NCBI RefSeq assembly: GCF_040703125.1
Contig: NZ_CP160035.1
Coordinates: forward strand, 3,210,001-3,274,000
Source: Flavobacterium ovatum
Lineage (GTDB): Bacteria > Bacteroidota > Bacteroidia > Flavobacteriales > Flavobacteriaceae
Reading direction: 5' to 3'
DNA length: 64,000 bases
Below are positions 17,504 through 33,820 of this stretch, in pieces. The translations under genes and the position numbers were made by a program. The stretch's first letter is position 1. Every line of letters starts with the position of its first letter. The notes beneath the pieces are model-generated. The model was not told where the DNA came from, ran no database searches, and saw only the letters and a program-made list of their open reading frames with translations.

Positions 17504-18562
17504 CTAGTTATTAAAAAAGAAACCACCTGGAATAATACCTACAGCGTAAGTAGATTTTAAACTTCCAGCAGTATCATAAATAGCTATTTTTCCGTCTGAG
17601 CTATAATCCCCAGCATCTCCAGTATAGATCAAATTATTATTTACAGCAAATCCGTAAGGGCTAAAAGTAGATTCAAATAATGCCGTTGTTGGCAAACTCG
17701 TATCACTTGTATTCATTACATAAACATTTTTAGCTTGTGTAAAATAAATTTTGTTATTTTCAATATCCATTTTTCCAGGATGAGACGTCAAAGCAAAATC
17801 TAAACTAGTCGTAACTAAATTTGTTGCAGGATTAATTTTTTGGATTTTACCGGCAGATTCAGCACCTGACCACACCGATTTCCCTTGGCATAAAACATAA
17901 ATTACCCCTTGATTCTCTTCAATAGCAGCAGGAACATCACCAACAGGAACGGTAGTTGATACTTTGGCCGTAGCAACATCGATAACAGATAGTGTGTTTC
18001 CAGAACCATACCCTCCTTTGTGCGCAACATATAACTTGCTGTTGTACACTATTAGTTTCTCTGGTCCTTCGGCAACTGGGATTTTTGATTCAACAAGGTT
18101 CGTTGTTAAATTAATAACCGCTACATAATCGTCAGTAGCATCATCACCATCTCCCCAATTGGTTACATAGCCTTTGCCATTGGCAAACACAATATATCTT
18201 GGGTTGTACAAATCTTTACTTATTGTAGCTATTCTTTTCAACGAGTATCTCTCTAGAACCTCAATCTTATTCGAACCATTCATTACTACATAAGCAGTTG
18301 CTCCGTTAGCATTAAAATTTTGTGCTACATCACCCAACAAACTTCCTCCGTTGTTTAGAGCAAACAACTTATTTTCTGTGGCTACACCTGCGTTGGCAAG
18401 AAACGAAATCTCAGCGTTCCCTTTAGTAAAACCGCCTTCGTTCAAAATAATCACACCTTTGTCATACGTCCCTTGTGATTTGGATTCATTATCATCATTC
18501 GTACAAGAAACCAAAGATAAAGCAGTGGCGATGCAAGCAATTGTAATTTTTTTAAAGTTCAT
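17504..18562 (-). CDS. BtuG-like surface lipoprotein (YncE/DUF5074 beta-propeller)
   Basis: 352 residues. A lipoprotein signal ends at LVSC (Cys20), followed by an Asp/Asn/Glu-rich surface-export stretch. The rest is a seven-bladed YncE-like propeller with repeated 'Y V ... V..I.L.T' strands. In Bacteroides, BtuG is a surface propeller lipoprotein that binds vitamin B12 tightly and hands it to BtuB. This gene sits 3 bases after a btuB-type receptor preceded by a cobalamin riboswitch, which supports the same role. That receptor is broken by an insertion sequence, so expression of this gene from the riboswitch transcript is doubtful. The BtuG name is inferred from context and fold. Confidence 0.75.
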   Translation of the reverse strand: MNFKKITIACIATALSLVSCTNDDNESKSQGTYDKGVIILNEGGFTKGNAEISFLANAGVATENKLFALNNGGSLLGDVAQNFNANGATAYVVMNGSNKIEVLERYSLKRIATISKDLYNPRYIVFANGKGYVTNWGDGDDATDDYVAVINLTTNLVESKIPVAEGPEKLIVYNSKLYVAHKGGYGSGNTLSVIDVATAKVSTTVPVGDVPAAIEENQGVIYVLCQGKSVWSGAESAGKIQKINPATNLVTTSLDFALTSHPGKMDIENNKIYFTQAKNVYVMNTSDTSLPTTALFESTFSPYGFAVNNNLIYTGDAGDYSSDGKIAIYDTAGSLKSTYAVGIIPGGFFFNN

Positions 18563-18565
18563 TAT

Positions 18566-20241
18566 TTAATATTTAATTGTTAAGGATAAATTATAATTAA
18601 TTCCAGGCATAGGCCTAATTTCTACTGTTTGATAGCTTTTATTAAATAGATTCATTACCTGAAACCCTATTTTATAATGTTGTTTTTTATCTATTTCACA
18701 AAAGGCAGATAGATTAGAAACCTGATATTCTTTGAGTCTATATAGATTGTCTGCCGTTGTAAACACAGCACCATTAAACAGAAATTGATAATTAACACTC
18801 CAATTTTCAAAAGAGTAATCCAGACTTGATGTCAATTTATGATAAGGTACATAAATCAATTGTTTTTCCTTTTTCTCATCTACAGACGAGGTGTAAGCAT
18901 AAGCTACATCCAAATCAAAACCGTGCTTTTTATACCTTTTCTTGTAATGTCCTATCAATTCTAGTCCTTTATTATTGACAACATCTGTATTTATAGGTTT
19001 CCAAAGACCGCTCTCATTAGGCACCCAACGAATCATATCTTTGGTATGTATGTAATAAAGCGTTGCCACAAACTGAAAAGCTCCTGTAACCAACTCCTGC
19101 CCCAACTCTACTTGCTGAGACAATTCTGGATTCAAATTTGGGTTACCGCTACCCTGCCAATACAAATCATTAAAGGTGGGAACTCTAAAGTTCTTGGAGG
19201 TATTCAACTTTATTTTGTAGTTATCCAATGGCATCACAACTAGTCCAACCGAATATAAAAAAGGAGCTTTATAATTGGTTGTTACTTCCTGCCTTGCACT
19301 TGCCTCCATTTTCAGCCTAGGGAATAGTGTATATTTTGCCAATAAACTAGCAGAACCTACTTCTCTCTTTTCGTTATTTATCGAACTCCCAAAACCGTTT
19401 ATTTGTGTGTAAGTAAAACCCGAATTGAGGGTAAAATCTGTAGAGAACGAATAATCTAAATCATATTTTAGCAGCTTAGTATTGGCTCCACCTTTACTAA
19501 AATTATCCTTGTTCTTATTTTCAAAATATTTGTACTCTTCAGTGATATAAGCTGCCTTTAGGGTCGAAGTAAAATCAGTAGTTCGGGCTATCCATTCTAA
19601 TAAATTTCGAGAATTAAGATCCTTATATTTACTAAGTGAAGTGGTAACTACTGTACCTGAAAAGTTTCTTTCTCCATCATACAATTGGCTATAAAAGTTG
19701 ATTTTATGATTTTCATTCAATTTGTAACCAAAGTTGGTGTTCAATCCAGAATTGTAATATTCTCCGTTTTGGTTGACTTGATTTTGATTGAGATATTTAT
19801 AATTGTTATCCGATTGATTTCTCGAAATACTTATTTGGGAAGCAAATTTACTATCAGAAACCCGTAGATCATAGAAATAACCTTGGGTATTGAAACTCCC
19901 CAAATTAACTCGTAACGTATTTTTGAATTGTTTTTTGAAGTTCAATTCGTTGTTCAAATGCACACTTCCACCAATTGCCGAACTGCCATAAATACCACTT
20001 CCTCCTCCGCTCCTGACAGAAATACTAGAATAACCCAATGGTGTAATGGTATTAAAATCTGTTTGTCCTAATAGTTGTGAGTTAATATTTATTCCGTTCC
20101 AAATAACTGCTGTTTGAGCGGCTGTTGTTCCGCGAAATGAAACTGAAGACACCATGCCATTACCATTTTCTTTAAAATAAAGTAAGCTGTTATAGCGCAA
20201 TAAATTGGTAAGGGAATTGTAATTTTTTTCGATTACAGAAT
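18566..20241 (-). pseudogene. btuB: btuB-type TonB-dependent receptor, 3' part (interrupted by IS)
   Basis: From Ile at 20233 down to the stop this encodes 555 residues of a TonB-dependent receptor: the plug end (MVSSVSFRGTTAAQTAVIWNG) and a 22-strand type barrel ending in a receptor-type 'YNLSLTIKY'. The first 54 residues lie beyond the insertion sequence at 21672-21833. Removing the IS and one 8-bp duplication rejoins the frame exactly and gives a 609-residue receptor. The Met codons that now precede this part lie inside the IS and give no signal peptide, so no working product is expected. The riboswitch and BtuG/BtuF/BtuC context points to cobalamin as substrate. Confidence 0.9.
20234..20241. 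repeat. Target-site duplication, left copy (TACAGAAT)
   Basis: TACAGAAT on the plus strand immediately left of the IS; the identical octamer is at 21672-21679. Eight bases is the duplication size known for ISL3-family elements. Confidence 0.92.
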
Positions 20242-20308
20242 GGATCAAGACAAAAAGTTGTGGGGAAATATTTAAATAAGGATATTTGTATTTTAAAATC
20301 TTTTCCCA

Positions 20309-20665
20309 ATGCAAGATTCTTTTAATGAGATCCTAAAATTATTACTACCTGAGATAATAATAAACTATTTTGAACTTACTTCTTATAAAAAGGAAAATGA
20401 AGCACTCCATCTTTATCTAAAAGAGATTAATTCACTACCAAAAGAATATCGTCAAAACAAATTAAGTTCAAAAGGATTCTTCGATGAAATAACAGTCCAG
20501 GATTTCCCTATCCGCGGTCATAAAGTATATCTTCATATCACTCGTAGAAGATGGCTTAATGAAGACACTGGTAAAGTTGTTTTTAGAGATTGGAATTTAG
20601 TAGCAGACGGAACTCGTGTAACACAGGAGTTTGCGTCTTTTTTAAAAGAGATCAATAGATTCTAG
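20309..20665 (+). CDS. ISAon1-type transposase, N-terminal frame
   Basis: 118 residues matching the N-terminal region of ISAon1-family transposases, which are commonly encoded as a short first frame. It contains the ITVQDFPIRGHKVYLHITRRRWL segment, the beta-strand/Arg-rich zone preceding a zinc-ribbon or HTH. The second frame opens at 20646 and overlaps this one by 20 bases in the +1 frame. A full transposase therefore needs a +1 shift in the overlap, either programmed or due to a mutation. The stop context TTCTAG allows a one-base forward slip, but the site cannot be proven by eye. Confidence 0.85.
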   Translation: MQDSFNEILKLLLPEIIINYFELTSYKKENEALHLYLKEINSLPKEYRQNKLSSKGFFDEITVQDFPIRGHKVYLHITRRRWLNEDTGKVVFRDWNLVADGTRVTQEFASFLKEINRF

Positions 20666-21638
20666 TCCAAATGATTGTAATACTATTGCTTCTTTCTATG
20701 GAGTTTCTGGTAGAAACCTCCAATGTCAATACAAAGACTTTTTAAGTGATTTTAAAGCTTGGGATCAAATAAAACATGCTAAAAAATGGCTTGTTTTTCC
20801 GCAAAACATTGGAAAGAACCTGTCAATAGATGAAACCTCCCTTTCAAATGGCGAACTCTATACTATTTTAACTAACAAATCTGGAAAAGGGAGAAAGGGA
20901 ACTATTGTAGCTATGATTGCAGGAACTAAAGCCGATACAGTTATTGCAGTTATAGAAAAAATCGCTCTTAAACAACGAAATCTAGTTCAGGAAATAACTT
21001 TAGACATGGCGGGAAATATGAATTTGATTGCCAAAAAATGCTTTCCTAATGCAACTCGTGTCACAGATCGATTTCATGTTCAAAAACTAGCTACAGAGGC
21101 TTTACAGGAAATCAGGATTAAATATCGTTGGGAAGCTATCGATCAAGAAAATAATGCTATTGAAAAAGCAAAAAAAAGCAAATCTAATTTCGAATCTCAA
21201 ATACTTTCAAATGGAGATACACTTAAGCAATTACTCGCTAGAAGTCGTTATTTCTTATACAAAAACAAATCAAGATGGACGCATAACCAAACGCAACGTG
21301 CCACTTTATTGTTTGAATTATATCCAGACATTTTAAAAGCATACGATTTAGCACAAGATTTGCGTACTATCTTTGAAAAAACAACTGACAAAATCATTGG
21401 GTTTGCAAAACTAGCCAAATGGCATGAAAAAGTAGATCAATCCGGATTCAAATCTTTCGGCACAATCTCTCGTACAATTACAAATCATTATCAGACCATA
21501 TTAAATTATTTTGACAATAGAAGTACTAATGCCTCTGCAGAATCATTCAATGCCAAAATAAAAGCATTCAGATCAAAATTCAGAGGAGTTAGAAATATAG
21601 AATACTTCCTGTTTAGACTAACTAATATATATGCTTAA
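20646..21638 (+). CDS. ISAon1-type transposase, catalytic frame (DDE_Tnp_ISL3)
   Basis: The open frame encodes about 330 residues with no ATG until 20913, and is expected to be made by frameshifting from the upstream frame. It contains all three catalytic acidic residues: Asp in NLSIDETSLS, Asp in EITLDMAGNM and Glu in NASAESFNAKIK. An HTH-like stretch (CNTIASFYGVSGRNLQ) sits near the start. Starting at 20913 would lose the first catalytic Asp. It ends 33 bases before the right end of the element. Confidence 0.88.
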   Translation, partial: KRSIDSSPNDCNTIASFYGVSGRNLQCQYKDFLSDFKAWDQIKHAKKWLVFPQNIGKNLSIDETSLSNGELYTILTNKSGKGRKGTIVAMIAGTKADTVIAVIEKIALKQRNLVQEITLDMAGNMNLIAKKCFPNATRVTDRFHVQKLATEALQEIRIKYRWEAIDQENNAIEKAKKSKSNFESQILSNGDTLKQLLARSRYFLYKNKSRWTHNQTQRATLLFELYPDILKAYDLAQDLRTIFEKTTDKIIGFAKLAKWHEKVDQSGFKSFGTISRTITNHYQTILNYFDNRSTNASAESFNAKIKAFRSKFRGVRNIEYFLFRLTNIYA

Positions 21639-21671
21639 TTTGTTCCACTCCACAGGTTTTCGTTATGATCC

Positions 21672-21679
21672 TACAGAAT
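21672..21679. repeat. Target-site duplication, right copy (TACAGAAT)
   Basis: Identical to 20234-20241 and immediately adjacent to the right inverted repeat of the IS. Confidence 0.92.
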
Positions 21680-21833
21680 CAGCTATTTTTTTGATTTGAA
21701 GAGAACTAGAATAGTTACGTAAAGCTACATCAGTAATCACCACCTCCTGCAAAGAAATAGGTTCCTTGGTTTGAGAGACAATCAGTTGACTTATCAAAAA
21801 TAAGCTGTAAAAAAAAGTTTGTTTTGCTTTCAT
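21672..21833 (-). pseudogene. btuB: btuB-type receptor, 5' part: signal peptide and TonB box
   Basis: 54 codons from ATG (complement of 21831-21833). They encode a signal peptide (FFYSLFLISQLIVSQ) and then ISLQEVVITDVALRNY, a typical TonB-box and plug start. The frame then enters the IS and stops after two codons. It joins in frame with the part at 18566-20241 once the IS and one 8-bp duplication are removed. The cobalamin riboswitch lies directly upstream. Confidence 0.9.
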
Positions 21834-21879
21834 CTATTTGAAATCCCTTTTTCCCGAGAGATTTGTATTTGTTAAGAAT

Positions 21880-22098
21880 AAAGGCAGGTCTCCTGGCTTG
21901 CGTCTTGTTGTTTACCTTCCCACTCGCCGCGGCGAGCAGTGGTTTTGTAGATAACAACAAGCTTTGTAGCTTACAGTTGCGGGTACAGCTTAGGATTAAC
22001 GATTTTAGATTGTAGATTTATGATTTTCGATGTATTTCAATCTGGTATCAAATATCTGCTTTCAGGTCTCGTTCACCTAATTCCCTTTTAATGTTGTT
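21880..22098 (-). promoter_or_regulatory. Cobalamin (B12) riboswitch
   Basis: On the minus strand the conserved pieces occur in order: AAAAGGGAA (near 22090), AGGTGAA, GCTGTACCCGCAACTGTAA (the B12 box region, 21990-21972) and the closing GCCAGGAGACCTGCC (21898-21884). The GC-rich hairpin CTCGCCGCGGCGAG lies between them. It precedes the interrupted btuB start by about 50 bases, as in other Bacteroidota B12 loci. It should lower btuB expression when adenosyl- or methyl-cobalamin is bound. Exact ends are approximate. Confidence 0.93.
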
Positions 22099-22233
22099 TT
22101 TGGTTAAAAAAAACAACAACCTTAAATTCTCGACAAAGGTAAATGATAAAAAAACTAAAAAGCAAATTTTATTTCAAAGGAGTATACTTAATCAAATTTG
22201 AATGAATATAATTGTTCTCGCTAGCCATGATAG

Positions 22234-22249
22234 TCCCGAAGCTTCGGGA
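22234..22249. repeat. 16-bp perfect palindrome in an interspersed-type repeat
   Basis: TCCCGAAGCTTCGGGA is a perfect palindrome inside a GC-rich non-coding stretch (about 22218-22300) that looks like the dispersed repeats of flavobacterial genomes. A related palindrome TCCCGAATATCGGGA occurs at 46484-46498. Confidence 0.5.
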
Positions 22250-22388
22250 GATATCCTCGTGTGAAACGAAGAGATAAAGGCGAAAGCAGGAACCCAATAT
22301 TATAATGGAAACTAAAACATCTGCTCCAAAATAAATTAGTCTTTTTTATAATTTCTCCTACCTTTGTGCCAAAACTTGAAATAAAATA

Positions 22389-23531
22389 ATGAAATTCATT
22401 CCCTATAAAATCCTTTTTACTTGCACTTTTTTCATTTTAATGAGCTGCAAAAAGTCGGATAAAGTACAAGCTGAAAGCGTTCCAAATATGACTAACAGTA
22501 TCGAGTACGCATCGAGTTTAGCCATTTATAAAAAAGAAGGGTATTCTGTTGTAAAAATCATCAATCCTTGGCCAAATGCTACTAAAAACCTGACTTATAT
22601 TTTAAAAGAAAAACAGACTACGCTTCCAGATAGCTTACAAAAATATCCTGTAATTACAGTTCCCTTACAATCTATTGTAGTGACATCAACAACGATTATT
22701 CCGTATCTCGAAATGTTAGGAGTTGAAAATAAATTGGTTGGATTTCCGCATACAGATTACATTTCGTCCGAAAAAACAAGAGCCTTAATTGATCAAGGAA
22801 AGATTAAAAATCTAGGTCAAAATGAAAAATTAAACGTCGAGCAATTAATTGATTTATCACCCGAATTGATTGTGACTTTTAGCATGGACAATCACAATCC
22901 GATGATTAAAAATTTAGAAAAAAGCGGTTTAAAAACACTTATTCAAGCCGACTGGATGGAACAAACTCCACTTGGAAAAGCGGAGTGGATTAAGCTTTAT
23001 GGAGCTTTGTTAGGTAAAGAAACAGATGCTCAAAAACATTTTGATCAAATTGTAAAAGACTACCAAGATGCGGTGGCACTAGCAACTATGACCAATGATC
23101 AAACATCTGTTTTGTATGGTTCTATGTACCAGGATCAATGGTTTGTAGCCAAAGGAAATAGCTGGGTTGCACAATTTATAAAAGATGCCAAAGCAGATTA
23201 TCTTTGGGCAAATTTAGAAGGTTCTGGAAGTTTGTCTTTATCATTTGAAACGGTACTCGAAAAAGCAAAAAATGCAAATTTCTGGATAGCAACCAGTTCG
23301 TTCAAAAGTTTAAACGAAATGACCAATGCTAATCCACATTACAGTCAATTTGAAGCTTTCAAGAAGAAGCAGGTCTATACCTTTGAGGGAAAAATTGGCG
23401 CTACAGGTGGTACAATTTATTATGAATTAGCACCTAGCCGACCTGATTTAGTTTTAAAAGATTATATCAAAATATTTCATCCTGAGTTACTTCCAAATTA
23501 TACCTTTACCTTTGCACAAAAATTGAACTAA
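22389..23531 (+). CDS. btuF: Periplasmic cobalamin-binding protein of an ABC transporter (BtuF-like lipoprotein)
   Basis: 380 residues. A lipoprotein signal ends at LMSC (Cys19). The rest is a class III (helical-backbone) binding protein with VPLQSIVVTSTTIIPYLEMLG, the LSPELIV segment and a C-terminal lobe. The permease gene starts 2 bases after its stop. The divergent cobalamin riboswitch and btuB/btuG genes argue that B12 is the ligand. Siderophore-type ligands use the same fold and cannot be ruled out from sequence alone. The gene has no riboswitch of its own on the plus strand. Confidence 0.8.
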   Translation: MKFIPYKILFTCTFFILMSCKKSDKVQAESVPNMTNSIEYASSLAIYKKEGYSVVKIINPWPNATKNLTYILKEKQTTLPDSLQKYPVITVPLQSIVVTSTTIIPYLEMLGVENKLVGFPHTDYISSEKTRALIDQGKIKNLGQNEKLNVEQLIDLSPELIVTFSMDNHNPMIKNLEKSGLKTLIQADWMEQTPLGKAEWIKLYGALLGKETDAQKHFDQIVKDYQDAVALATMTNDQTSVLYGSMYQDQWFVAKGNSWVAQFIKDAKADYLWANLEGSGSLSLSFETVLEKAKNANFWIATSSFKSLNEMTNANPHYSQFEAFKKKQVYTFEGKIGATGGTIYYELAPSRPDLVLKDYIKIFHPELLPNYTFTFAQKLN

Positions 23532-23533
23532 CA

Positions 23534-24556
23534 TTGGCTTCAAAACAATCTACTTTTCTATTATTTGCCTTGGTTGGAATCGGGTTCCTAAGCTTGTTTT
23601 TTCTAAACATTAGTTTTGGGTCTGTGACTATTCCGTGTAAAGATATTTACCACAGTTTGAGTGGCGGCCAAGCTAGTAAATCTACTTGGGAATACATCAT
23701 CATCAACTATAGATTACCCAAAGCGATTACGGCGATTTTGGTCGGAATGGGACTTTCAATCAGTGGTTTGTTGATGCAAACGCTTTTCAGAAATCCACTT
23801 GCTGGACCTTACGTTTTAGGATTGAGTTCAGGCTCTAGTTTAGGCGTAGCCTTCGTGATTTTGGGAGCAGGATTCCTTCCACCTTTCTTGAGTAGTATCC
23901 TATTGTCATCTTACGGAATTGTATTGGCTTCCACCATTGGCAGCACTTTGGTTCTACTAGCGGTTTTGGTCGTTGCACAACGATTGCGAGATACCATGGC
24001 GATCCTTATTGTAGGACTGATGTTTGGGAGTTTTACCTCAGCCATTGTAAGCACACTCACCTACTTTAGCACCGCCGATCAACTGCAAAAATTTACTTTT
24101 TGGGCTATGGGAAGCCTTGGGAATTTGTCATGGAATTCGATTCTTATTTTGAGCACAGCTGTGGCTATTGGTCTATTACTAAGTCTATACAGCATCAAGC
24201 CTTTGAACGCTTTACTCTTAGGAGAAAACTATGCCAAAAGCATGGGATTGAACTTCAACAAAACCCGTTTTATTATCATCTTAGCAACTAGTATTTTGGC
24301 TGGAAGCATTACTGCTTATGCTGGCCCTATTGCCTTCATTGGACTTGCCGTTCCGCATATTGCCAAATTGGTTTTTCAGACTAGTAATCATGTGGTGTTG
24401 TTTTGGAGTACCTTGCTTATTGGTGCCAGTATTATGTTACTTTGTGATGTTATATCTCAAATGCCTGGTTATGAAATAACTTTACCAATTAATGCGGTTA
24501 CGTCGCTGTTTGGAGCACCAGTCGTTATTTGGTTATTGGTTCGAAAAAGGAAATGA
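23534..24556 (+). CDS. btuC: FecCD/BtuC-type ABC transporter permease
   Basis: 340 residues with about ten transmembrane helices, typical of FecCD/BtuC. It contains RLPKAITAILVGMGLSISGLLMQ, then the NPLAGPYVLGLSSGSSLG signature and a C-terminal GPIAFIGLAVPHIAK segment. The start is TTG at 23534, 2 bases after the btuF stop; no in-frame ATG precedes the first helix. It belongs with the B12 binding protein upstream. The matching ATPase (BtuD) is not next to it; downstream is intergenic DNA, so the ATPase must be encoded elsewhere or be missing. Confidence 0.85.
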   Translation: MASKQSTFLLFALVGIGFLSLFFLNISFGSVTIPCKDIYHSLSGGQASKSTWEYIIINYRLPKAITAILVGMGLSISGLLMQTLFRNPLAGPYVLGLSSGSSLGVAFVILGAGFLPPFLSSILLSSYGIVLASTIGSTLVLLAVLVVAQRLRDTMAILIVGLMFGSFTSAIVSTLTYFSTADQLQKFTFWAMGSLGNLSWNSILILSTAVAIGLLLSLYSIKPLNALLLGENYAKSMGLNFNKTRFIIILATSILAGSITAYAGPIAFIGLAVPHIAKLVFQTSNHVVLFWSTLLIGASIMLLCDVISQMPGYEITLPINAVTSLFGAPVVIWLLVRKRK

Positions 24557-29726: not shown

Positions 29727-29758
29727 TAAAAAATCAAAACAACTATATAAACCAAAGA

Positions 29759-30625
29759 ATGAAAACAGTACTATTAACTATCGTTTCTACTTTTACATTT
29801 TGTGTGACTGTACAGGCACAGGATTTAACCATTCCGCCAAAAAAGTATGCAGATTCGATTCAACTCGAAAAAGCACCTTCTAGATTGAACCAAGAATTTC
29901 CGCTTTCGGATCAAAAAAATTCTGGAAAATGGAAACTTCTAAAAGAGTATTCCGATGAATTTGATTCGAAAACTTTAAACGAAACAAAATGGTTTCCGAA
30001 CAATCCTAAGTGGAAAGGTCGTGCGCCAACTTATTTTCATCCTTCGAATGTAAGTCTGGAAAAAGGAGAGTTGGTCATTAAAGTAAACAAACATGACAAC
30101 GAGCAATTGCCAAAAGATTTTACGCATTCGACAGGATTTATAAAAAGTAAAAAACAATTTTTGTACGGCTATTTTGAAGCCGAATGTAAATTGATGGATG
30201 CGCCATGGGTGTCGGGTTTTTGGATGACCAATGTGGACAAAGATTGGTGGACAGAAATTGATATTTGCGAAAACGCACCTGGAGTTGTATACAACCGTCA
30301 TGATTTGAATTCGAATATTCATGTTTTTAAATCGCCAGCCGATCAAGGCGATGTGAAGGCCCATTTTTCAAGAACTATCAAATATTATTTTCCGAAAGAA
30401 TTGCAAGCCGATTACCACGTTTGGGGCTTAGAATGGACAGCCGAATTTATTCGTTTTTATATTGACGGAATCCTTTTTAGAGAAGCGCCCAACACACATT
30501 GGCACCAGCCGTTGGAAGTCAACTTTAACTGTGAATCCAACAAATGGTTTGGTGCTTTGCCAGACGATAAACGCTTGGACGGCGAGTTTCATGTGAAATA
30601 CTTTAGAGCTTGGGATCATAAATAA
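29759..30625 (+). CDS. GH16 glycoside hydrolase, exported
   Basis: 288 residues. The signal peptide ends near VQAQ (about residue 20), and the GH16 domain spans about residues 55-288. The catalytic beta-bulge motif EIDICE puts the nucleophile at Glu166, Asp168 and the acid/base at Glu171. Substrate-cleft residues such as WKGRAP and FHPSNV resemble galactanase-type GH16 (agarase, porphyranase, carrageenase groups), but no subfamily can be fixed by eye. The gene sits 32 bases after GH43-CBM6 and 31 bases before GH2. The trio plausibly converts a beta-galactan to oligosaccharides, then sugars. Confidence 0.88.
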   Translation: MKTVLLTIVSTFTFCVTVQAQDLTIPPKKYADSIQLEKAPSRLNQEFPLSDQKNSGKWKLLKEYSDEFDSKTLNETKWFPNNPKWKGRAPTYFHPSNVSLEKGELVIKVNKHDNEQLPKDFTHSTGFIKSKKQFLYGYFEAECKLMDAPWVSGFWMTNVDKDWWTEIDICENAPGVVYNRHDLNSNIHVFKSPADQGDVKAHFSRTIKYYFPKELQADYHVWGLEWTAEFIRFYIDGILFREAPNTHWHQPLEVNFNCESNKWFGALPDDKRLDGEFHVKYFRAWDHK

Positions 30626-30656
30626 TTACTACAAAAACCTTAGAATTTATTATACA

Positions 30657-33551
30657 ATGAAAAAAACTATTCAAATACTTAGTCTACTGTGCTTCATTTG
30701 CACCCTGAACGTGCATAGTCAGACCCAACAGGAGAAAGACACGAGAACCAAAAAAAGCATCAATTTTGGCTGGAAATTTCATCTGGGAGATCCCGATGGT
30801 GCTTTATACACCGAAAAACTAGACGATTCAAAATGGGAGTCTGTCAATGTTCCGCATTCATTAGAATTGACATCGATGGATTTGAACGGAAACCAAGATG
30901 ACAAGTACCAAAAGACTTTTATGAGAAACGTAGGTTGGTATCGTAGAGATATTACGGTTACTGCAGATACATCCAAAAAAGTATTTCTCGAATTTGAAGG
31001 CGTGCATCAAGTAACCAATGTATGGGTCAACGGCAAACATGTGGGAGAATATGCGGTAGGAGGGTATACACCCTTTCATTTTGATATTTCGAAATACGTG
31101 ACCTATGGCGGTAAAAATCAAGTAACAGTAAAGGCGGATAATCGCAAAAGCGATATCATTCCGCCCGATCCAGGACCTATGGATTATATCAAATTTGGAG
31201 GTTTGTACCGTGATGTGTATTTGGTCGAAACCAATTCTACGCACGTGACTTTCAATTGGGAATCGGATATTTCGGGACAAAATATAACAACGCCTACGGT
31301 AGACCCAATCAATTTGAATGGTACTGTAAATATCAAAACGGGAGTTCGAAATGAAACCAACCAAACGCAAAAAACTACTGTTGTCAATCGATTGGTAGAC
31401 AAAAACGGACTGGTGGTTTTGAAGCTTTCGCAAACCAAAGAAATTGGTGCAGGAAATGAAGTTCAGTTTAACGAAATTGGTAGTATTGAAGATAATTTTC
31501 ATTTGTGGTCAACGGATAATCCGTATTTGTACCGTGTGAATACCACCGTATTTGAAAACGGAAAATTAGTAGATGAAACCGAATGTAAAATGGGTTTTCG
31601 AAAAATCGAAATGAACAATGTGCAAGGTTTATTGCTCAACGGAAAACCGATTAAGTTAATTGGTGTCAACCGCCATCAGCATTATGGGTTTATAGGAGAT
31701 GCAATGCCTAATTCGTTACATTATAAGGATGTTTTGCAAATCAAAAAACTGGGTATGAATGTCATTCGCACCGCACATTATCCACATGATAACGCTTTTA
31801 TCGAAGCTTGTGACGAATTGGGGATTTTGATTTATGAAGAAGCGCCAACATGGATGTCTATTGGTAGCAATGAATGGTTTGACAACTATGAAAAAGCCGC
31901 CAGAACCATGGTGCGCAACCACCGCAACCACCCATCGGTATTTATTTGGGGAGCCGGAATTAATCATCGTGGTTATGTGCCAAGAGCGCATAATATAATG
32001 AAGCAAGAAGACCCAACTCGATTTACGGCTTCGCAAAGTAGCCGCTGGACAGGATGGCAAAACTCGGGACTGACCGATATTTTTGCACAAATGATTTATG
32101 GCGATTATTATTGGAGCGGTGACGAACCTATTCTAGCCATGGAAGGAAAACGTGGTCCCGAAGCGGTAAACGACTTTATGAGCAGCCCAATGAAAATTGG
32201 TCATATCGCGTGGACGGCGCATGCTTATTACACTTTTCACCCCAATCCAGACAAAAGAGATAAAAGTCGTAGCGGTATGATGACGGTTTTTAGATACCCA
32301 AGACCGGGACTTTTTTGGTACCAGTCGGAGTTGACCAAAGTGCCTTTTACTCGATTGGAAACCGATTGGAAAGAAGGAACTCAAGAGGTAATTGTGTACA
32401 GCAACGCCGATCAAGTAGAACTGGTTTTGAACGGAAAAATAATTGCAACGCAATCTCCAACGATCAAAGACGATTATAAAAATCTAAAGCATGCTCCATT
32501 TCATTTTAAAATAGAAAATTTCGAAAAAGGGACGCTTACCGCTAATGGTTTGGTCGAAGGACAAAAAATGTCTAGCGATACCAAAATGACACCCGAAGCT
32601 CCAGATCATATAATATTGGAATTGGATTCAGATGGTCGAAAATTGACTGCTGATGGGTCGGATATTATCGTAGGTTACGCCAAAGTAGTCGACAAAAACG
32701 GTACGATATTGCAAGATGTGGATATGGACATTAGTTTTTCGGTAAAAGGAAACGCTACTATTGTTGGGGATCAAACGGCCGCACATTCCAACCCAATGTT
32801 TACGACTCATGGGGTTGCACCCGTCCTGATTCAGGCAGGTACAGCGGTTGGGAAAATTGAAGTTACCGCTTTTGCGAAAGGTTTGAAGTCGGGCAAAGCT
32901 AGTATCATGAGTACCAAAGTAGATGACAACGCATTCGAACCAGAAACCATTCACGATTTAGAACAAGTAAAAGTAGATTTGGGAGGAAACGATCAATTGG
33001 TGCAATTTGATTGGACTCCATGGAACGGAAATGACAACAATGCAGGCATTAAAACCTTCAGCGAGATGGGTGGATTTACAGCCAAAATCGAAGCTATTGG
33101 CAAAGTTGAAAACACGAGATGGTTGGGCGAAATTAATGTTATTGGTAAATATGGATTTGCTTGCGGAGATGGTGTTTTAGGCGCGACCAAAGAGGGTTTA
33201 TCGCTAGAATTAACGGGACTTAAAAAAGGAAAATACCAATTAAAAACGGTACACCATGCCCCAAGAACCAATACAGACAGTATGGATCCAAATCAAGAAA
33301 AAGCGGCGACTTACAAGATTTACCAAATTCCGTATGCTAAAAAAATAAACATCAGTACTACAGATAAAAACGGAACTACAGTAAAAGAAAACATTGTAGT
33401 AACGGAAGGAAGTGATATGCAAAATAAATCTTTTGGTAACAGTACACAGTATTTTGAATCTGACGGTATAAATTCAGTTAAAATTATTTTTAAAGACCCA
33501 AAAGGTGCGGCAGTTTGGTTGAATAATTTTGAATTGAGTCAATGGTATTAA
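30657..33551 (+). CDS. GH2-family protein with altered acid/base site
   Basis: 964 residues. The signal peptide ends at VHSQ. GH2 sugar-binding, immunoglobulin-like and TIM-barrel domains follow (barrel about 335-600, VNRHQHYGFIGDAMP). The nucleophile is Glu496 in LAMEGKRG. At the position where GH2 enzymes have the NE acid/base pair (after HPSVFIW) this protein has Asn436-His437, so the usual catalytic Glu is absent. The C-terminal 300 residues contain bacterial Ig-like strands and a malectin-like domain (about 765-964). It is the third gene of the GH43-GH16-GH2 operon. It may be a modified exo-glycosidase or a binding protein; the fold call is firm, the activity is not. Confidence 0.85.
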   Translation: MKKTIQILSLLCFICTLNVHSQTQQEKDTRTKKSINFGWKFHLGDPDGALYTEKLDDSKWESVNVPHSLELTSMDLNGNQDDKYQKTFMRNVGWYRRDITVTADTSKKVFLEFEGVHQVTNVWVNGKHVGEYAVGGYTPFHFDISKYVTYGGKNQVTVKADNRKSDIIPPDPGPMDYIKFGGLYRDVYLVETNSTHVTFNWESDISGQNITTPTVDPINLNGTVNIKTGVRNETNQTQKTTVVNRLVDKNGLVVLKLSQTKEIGAGNEVQFNEIGSIEDNFHLWSTDNPYLYRVNTTVFENGKLVDETECKMGFRKIEMNNVQGLLLNGKPIKLIGVNRHQHYGFIGDAMPNSLHYKDVLQIKKLGMNVIRTAHYPHDNAFIEACDELGILIYEEAPTWMSIGSNEWFDNYEKAARTMVRNHRNHPSVFIWGAGINHRGYVPRAHNIMKQEDPTRFTASQSSRWTGWQNSGLTDIFAQMIYGDYYWSGDEPILAMEGKRGPEAVNDFMSSPMKIGHIAWTAHAYYTFHPNPDKRDKSRSGMMTVFRYPRPGLFWYQSELTKVPFTRLETDWKEGTQEVIVYSNADQVELVLNGKIIATQSPTIKDDYKNLKHAPFHFKIENFEKGTLTANGLVEGQKMSSDTKMTPEAPDHIILELDSDGRKLTADGSDIIVGYAKVVDKNGTILQDVDMDISFSVKGNATIVGDQTAAHSNPMFTTHGVAPVLIQAGTAVGKIEVTAFAKGLKSGKASIMSTKVDDNAFEPETIHDLEQVKVDLGGNDQLVQFDWTPWNGNDNNAGIKTFSEMGGFTAKIEAIGKVENTRWLGEINVIGKYGFACGDGVLGATKEGLSLELTGLKKGKYQLKTVHHAPRTNTDSMDPNQEKAATYKIYQIPYAKKINISTTDKNGTTVKENIVVTEGSDMQNKSFGNSTQYFESDGINSVKIIFKDPKGAAVWLNNFELSQWY

Positions 33552-33820
33552 TGGCATTCATTTTATTAAAACATTTAGCATAAATCCTCACTGATGAAGA
33601 CTATTAAGAGGTAAGAAACATTTAAATCATAGATAAAAAAATAAATTTTCTTACCTCATCATTTATGCAGACTTGAATAAAGTTCATGACATTCAAGTTG
33701 TATGCTTCGACTTCGCTCACAGAGGCTAAACTGTATGTTTCATGATGTTCATTATTTAAATTTATGTGTTTTATTTTACGAAAATAAAACCATCTAAAAT
33801 ATTTTATTTATTTCAAAGCA
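33552..33820. other. Intergenic with two inverted elements
   Basis: Between convergent genes. It holds an 11-bp stem GAGGTAAGAAA / TTTCTTACCTC (33608-33618 and 33647-33657) and the half-repeat CTTCGACTTCGCTCA at 33705-33719, which matches one arm of the inverted repeat at 51080-51127. No gene was seen. Confidence 0.55.

Follow-up and report, generated by a model that had tools for sequence, protein, structure and literature searches.

Within the 64,000-nucleotide stretch of the Flavobacterium ovatum genome analysed here (the window), a gene for a btuB-type receptor is interrupted by an insertion sequence whose own transposase is divided between two reading frames. The locus raises two questions: what the interruption costs the cell in vitamin B12 uptake, and how a single transposase could be made from two frames. 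As a joint reading, we consider it highly probable that the element inserted recently into an auxiliary btuB gene, that a second locus keeps B12 uptake, and that the transposase would be produced by slippage. The transposase junction matters more than the insertion and is the part worth following.

An insertion sequence interrupts a btuB-type receptor gene

The 1430 bp lying between two copies of TACAGAAT (20234..20241 and 21672..21679) form an ISAon1-type insertion sequence on the plus strand (20242..21671), identified by its sequence, by protein models and by its other copies. The receptor gene is on the minus strand and was split between codons 54 and 55 without loss of any base. Its 5′ piece contains 54 codons (21672..21833), and its 3′ piece, which encodes the plug and β-barrel according to models, a structure match and alignment, contains 555 codons and the stop codon (18566..20233), for a sum of 609 residues. 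When the two pieces were aligned separately with four intact orthologues of 70–79% identity (P0122, P0123, P0124 and P0126; two named Flavobacterium faecale, one Flavobacterium sp. 7A and one F. limicola), they met exactly, with neither a gap nor an overlap. The initial annotation had described a complete insertion sequence with imperfect inverted ends, both transposase frames and a clean 8-bp duplication, as well as receptor fragments joining in frame to 609 residues; our analysis bore out each of these points. No intact allele from the same species was present among the best 120 of 2995 passing proteins (7994 candidates scored), where the nearest other intact receptor was 79% identical.

A cobalamin riboswitch (21866..22139, minus strand; RF00174, 96.9 bits) precedes the receptor gene, and a gene for a BtuG-type DUF5074 β-propeller lipoprotein, assigned by domain and structure matches, follows it on the same strand (17504..18562). 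The 5′ end of the riboswitch overlaps a promoter-like TTG-N21-TACCTTTG (22134..22165, minus strand), which resembles a promoter consensus and may have arisen by chance; two promoter-like sites were found on the riboswitch strand of 18563–22300, compared to 0.4 expected per strand. Divergently oriented genes on the plus strand encode a btuF-like periplasmic-binding protein (22389..23531; PF01497) and a btuC-like FecCD-type permease (23534..24556), the latter scoring 199 bits with the BtuC model, below its cut-off of 334. The best solved relatives of the receptor and of the DUF5074 lipoprotein were chains A and B, respectively, of the same entry, 8p97, and the next match to the receptor was chain A of 8p98, which is named BtuB. 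The curated BtuB model TIGR01779 (cut-off 599.7) was passed neither by the 3′ piece (115 bits) nor by the intact paralogue described below (103.9 bits).

Reading the 5′ piece into the element gave 54 receptor residues followed by Gly-Ser and a stop codon, and the 3′ piece is without the N-terminal signal and TonB-box region, as judged by eye. Because the broken receptor ends after 56 residues, we infer that this riboswitch-led receptor is null and that transcription of the downstream btuG-type gene is probably lost. We also looked in the element for an outward promoter that might drive the 3′ piece; the single minus-strand match, at 21210, was not counted, given 0.4 expected per strand.

Fifteen matches to the element were found in the genome, which consists of one contig of 4,249,485 bases, and four of them are full-length. 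The window copy and two others are identical, and the fourth (C1:114231) has one 2-base gap. Each of the four is flanked by a different 8-bp duplication (TACAGAAT, CCTTTTTT, GCAAATTA and ATAAAAAT). The proposal of the initial annotation that the insertion was recent is backed by the three identical copies and by the 555-codon fragment, which is still open; as that annotation also suggested, the insertion may be a strain-level difference or may date from cultivation. The remaining matches have diverged or are incomplete, and several lie within C1:115–126 kb. At C1:112000–131999, full and partial ISAon1-type copies are clustered, and one full copy is 22 bases away from a second right end of 45 bases. 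Of 121 genomes of the genus and 296 of the phylum, 18 and 13, respectively, contained ISAon1 N-terminal parts, with the source genome included in both counts. Also observed in the source genome was a 531-codon frame (L145:5868–7463, minus strand) whose C-terminal part is made up of near-identical repeats of approximately 30 residues.

A second receptor locus is intact

A second btuB was sought, as proposed with the initial annotation, and an intact one was identified at C1:4131081–4132748. Its open frame comprises 621 codons, which gives 611 residues when read from the ATG, and the protein shares 48% identity with the 3′ piece in the window. Its own cobalamin riboswitch lies 33 bases ahead of it and its own DUF5074 (BtuG-type) gene follows, such that both loci have a cobalamin riboswitch ahead and a BtuG-type gene adjacent. 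The putative substrate of both receptors is B12. Bacteroides genomes each contain several BtuB-BtuG loci, according to the part of PMC10404256 used here. The Flavobacterium loci resemble them in that a TonB-dependent receptor is encoded beside a β-propeller lipoprotein, both being relatives of 8p97 and 8p98, and in that the genome has more than one locus, whereas one of the two loci here is broken by an insertion and B12 binding is putative.

Among 150 genomes of the genus, 70 contained a receptor at an E value of 1e-60 or better, and none of the 72 receptor places had an inner stop codon. Two such receptors were found only in the source genome and in one fragmentary genome, in a count that scored at most nine candidates per genome and may therefore miss second copies. 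When the second receptor was used as the query against ten genomes of named loci, all ten gave a match, and two places were found only in Flavobacterium sp. 7A. A maximum-likelihood tree of 103 receptors was also built by a quick method; it does not include the orthologues of F. faecale and F. limicola, and its deepest forks are weak. In this tree the broken copy paired only with the Flavobacterium sp. 7A receptor (support 100), and the intact copy was placed in a Flavobacterium clade of ten rows (support 100).

DNA identity to Flavobacterium sp. 7A is 97.3% over 4.7 kb at the second locus and 73.8% over 5.1 kb at the window locus. This result only suggests that genes were exchanged at the second locus, since other stretches of at least 500 bases already span 72 to 96% identity to the same genome. 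The second btuB-btuG locus adjoins a putative nitrate-uptake type cluster with MFS and NIR_SIR genes by Pfam, and this region (L093:4868–18510) is 94–97% identical to Flavobacterium sp. 7A DNA, above most other stretches compared. In the window, a 3.8-kb stretch with a glycoside-hydrolase-like gene pair, recognized by eye (29754–33553), has 96% identity to Flavobacterium sp. 7A, compared to 72–89% for the neighbouring stretches.

As the second riboswitch-btuB-btuG locus was kept, the cell probably remains able to take up B12; loss of all BtuB-type uptake was rejected in view of this intact locus. The initial annotation had suggested that a high-affinity B12 entry route would probably be lost. 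This is supported for the window receptor but overstates the effect on B12 entry, as the genome contains the second receptor with its riboswitch and BtuG-type gene. The insertion is thus an ordinary event that removed an auxiliary locus, with a smaller effect than had been proposed. Loss of a spare B12 receptor, with retention of one that is common to other Flavobacterium, provides a small case of uptake-locus turnover.

The genome encodes methylmalonyl-CoA mutase and a two-part MetH, and a MesX gene adjoins one for a MesD-like methionine synthase (L131). We also observed that metE is a 216-codon remnant of the catalytic domain (L143:3297–3947; matched part C1:487796–488419). The MesD/MesX pair requires oxygen but not B12, as described in the portion of PMC7857596 drawn on here, which weakens the case for a strict B12 requirement based on the metE remnant. 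Taken together, the mutase and MetH, the metE remnant and the MesX/MesD-like pair indicate that B12 is probably used by the cell and that methionine supply in air probably does not strictly depend on it.

Other accounts of the insertion were weighed against these results. An assembly artefact among near-identical copies would have material to act on, as the genome contains four of them, but swapped junctions would break the matching 8-bp duplications that are present on both sides of each copy. Moreover, because the four copies have four different duplications of their own, these duplications are not due to chance and would be hard to obtain by misjoined assembly. We therefore find an artefact scarcely credible and regard the insertion event as confirmed at the level of the assembled sequence. 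Selection for the insertion, e.g. as resistance to a phage that uses the window receptor, draws on the role of BtuB as a phage receptor in enterobacteria; it is highly improbable here, as the genome holds no evidence of it and loss of a spare copy does not require selection.

The element belongs to the ISAon1 group

The element terminates in imperfect inverted repeats, GGATCAAGACAAAAAGTTGTGG and GGATCATAACGAAAACCTGTGG (left end 20242..20263, plus strand; right end 21650..21671, minus strand), which are alike at 17 of 22 positions when counted by eye and share GGATCA. Inverted ends that begin with GG are typical of the ISL3 family and the ISAon1 group. ORF1 (20309..20665, plus strand) encodes 118 amino acids corresponding to the N-terminal part of the ISAon1 transposase (NF049916, 164.3 bits, cut-off 55). 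The ORF2 frame (20646..21638, plus strand), which contains the main transposase part, is open for 330 amino acids and is +1 relative to ORF1, with its first ATG only at 20913. The part from 20913 scored 387.7 bits with the NCBIfam ISAon1 downstream model NF049917 (cut-off 250) and 170.3 bits with the DDE_Tnp_ISL3 domain PF01610 (cut-off 23). With the general NCBIfam ISL3 transposase model (cut-off 180), both the ORF2 part (136.2 bits) and L167, a relative with a single frame (105.4 bits), scored below the cut-off. On the basis of the GG ends, the 8-bp duplication, the DDE_Tnp_ISL3 domain and the two ISAon1 models above cut-off, we assign the element to the ISAon1 group, with an ISL3-like transposase. 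It is unlike the ISL3 family in that its transposase is split over two frames and the general ISL3 model is not passed. The split of the ISAon1 transposase is already known, as shown by the designations 'upstream' and 'downstream' in the NCBIfam model names.

A conserved T/A run and a predicted stem-loop mark the frame junction

ORF1 and ORF2 overlap at TTTTTTAAAA (20638..20647, plus strand), a conserved run that we propose as a slippage site from the constancy of its codons. The junction was compared among 59 loci (57 fetched, plus L007 and L097), 55 of which contain both transposase parts. Of the loci, 42 had the +1 layout and an ORF1 of at least 95 residues, and 21 of these 42 are more than 10% apart in ORF1; the loci set aside were truncated, broken, of another layout or near-copies. 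In these 21 divergent Bacteroidota elements, the codons of the F-L-K junction columns were TTT in 20 of 20, TTA in 19 of 19 and AAA in 18 of 19. They are the top three of 37 conserved columns with synonymous choice, the rest of which have a median of 0.53, and the same three codons lead 38 columns when ten representatives at 70% are used. T6 or longer followed by A4 was found in 19 of the 21 elements, with another phase in L202; the exceptions are L188, which has T7A3, and L199, which has T8 followed by GAA.

Removal of one A from the run left the next 75 bases open in 19 of 21 elements, the exceptions being L158 and L202, in which stop codons follow every change to the run. Losses or gains inside the T run were rejected, as in 20 of 21 elements a stop codon then follows within 75 bases. 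The exception is L199, which combines the T8 run with the absence of a stem-loop (see below), and in which loss of a T would suffice. Frameshifting by −1 at U_UUU_UUA or U_UUA_AAA was rejected by reasoning, since the wrong frame results, as was a −2 shift at U6A, which runs into the TAA that T-run changes also reach. In the one-frame relative L167, the N-terminal model matches residues 13–120 and the main model matches from residue 122; thus, one continuous ISAon1-type protein occurs in nature.

Folding tests predicted a stem-loop directly 5′ of the run (20605..20638, plus strand). These tests included 20 elements, with L202 left out as its junction is disrupted. In 16 of 20 elements, the 36 bases 5′ of the run folded better than approximately 90% of the element's own windows; for the 36 bases 3′ of the run, this held in none of 20. 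When codons were resampled such that the amino acids were kept, the 5′ stem-loop had a p-value of 0.1 or below in 16 of 20 elements (median 0.023) and in eight of ten distant representatives, whereas 10.3% of 556 control sites in ORF1 reached 0.1 or less. As the elements are related, combined p-values are not to be trusted at face value. Four of the 20 elements missed the threshold of 0.1, and L199 is entirely without a stem-loop (p 1.0). Weak stem-loops were found in L155, L161, L164, L165, L188, L189, L192 and L197 (p 0.05 to 0.21), and the one-frame relatives gave p-values of 0.24 (L167) and 0.10 (L186, truncated). A stem-loop is thus not clearly absent from these two relatives, a result that counts neither for nor against the proposal.

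Proposed transcriptional slippage would join the two transposase frames

As the sequence shows, an ISAon1-type insertion sequence moved recently into an auxiliary btuB gene, duplicating 8 bp. During transcription of the element, RNA polymerase would most likely slip at TTTTTTAAAA behind the nascent RNA stem-loop and drop one A, as the pattern of conservation suggests, with the result that ORF1 and ORF2 would be read as a single full transposase. We infer this mechanism from the layout, which matches that of stem-loop-stimulated transcriptional slippage. We lean towards the view that ISAon1-type transposases throughout the Bacteroidota would be made by loss of an A at T6A4 behind a stem-loop. 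By our reasoning, such a loss would leave an rU:dT mismatch, which is less easy than the rU:dG mismatch of the known T5C5 case.

The same protein would be obtained by +1 ribosomal frameshifting, in which tRNA-Lys moves from AAA onto the overlapping AAG within UUA_AAA_G. A G follows AAA in most of the 21 elements, which would allow good re-pairing; however, the base after AAA is C in L197 and the L188 sequence is TTA AAG AAG, and yet both kept the +1 layout. Structure above chance level was detected 3′ of the site in none of 20 elements, but was present 5′ of it, and the section of a 2016 review used here states that no insertion sequence using +1 ribosomal frameshifting had been identified (PMC5009743). 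We consider ribosomal frameshifting unlikely. Translation of ORF2 from its own start, with no recoding, could draw on an ATG, GTG or TTG of the ORF2 frame that precedes the Asp taken here to be the first catalytic one, in 11 of 17 rows (a count that includes one duplicate pair and the wrongly bounded L202). No such codon precedes this Asp in L152, L154, L165 and L194, the window's element among them, and an independent start would not explain why the TTT TTA AAA codons are so constant; we consider it very unlikely. A hairpin followed by U6 is also the layout of an intrinsic terminator, such that the stem-loop and T run might lower transposase expression, with the frame change brought about otherwise. 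That role would account neither for the A4 and the codon phase nor for the TAA that is reached upon T-run changes in 20 of 21 elements; we judge it quite unlikely as the sole explanation, although terminator and slippage roles may coexist.

Comparison with known slippage systems

Our literature search returned nothing on ISAon1 by name; ISfinder, which was outside the search, may already list ISAon1 as using a frameshift. The search also returned nothing joining the ISL3 family, two open reading frames and bacteroid, or joining programmed ribosomal frameshifting, transposase, insertion sequence and Flavobacterium. The insertion sequence families listed as using frameshifting in the consulted part of a review are IS1, IS3, IS5 and IS630 (PMC5009743), and ISL3 is not mentioned in the passages of that review or of PMC3711429 used here. 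If slippage by loss of an A is true, it would be a second and far wider case of slippage driven by a stem-loop, with a new motif and in a family other than IS630. Transposases that are now annotated as two proteins would be one, and the Bacteroidota would provide a widespread natural test set for the action of RNA structure on RNA polymerase slippage.

The closest parallel that we consider is the Roseiflexus IS630 element, in which T5C5 has a stem-loop directly 5′ and loss of one C gives the full transposase (Penno et al. 2015, as summarized in the corresponding part of PMC5009743). The window element has in common with it a ten-base, two-letter run starting with T, a 5′ stem-loop and a net +1 change. 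The two differ in family and in motif, T6A4 rather than T5C5, and slippage was measured in the Roseiflexus element, whereas here it is suggested by sequence conservation in many elements. IS1447 of the IS3 family likewise requires slippage after a stem-loop for its transposase, as we propose here, according to the portion of PMC6211511 consulted; unlike the window element, it belongs to another family, its run is a homopolymer, A9, and a base is gained.
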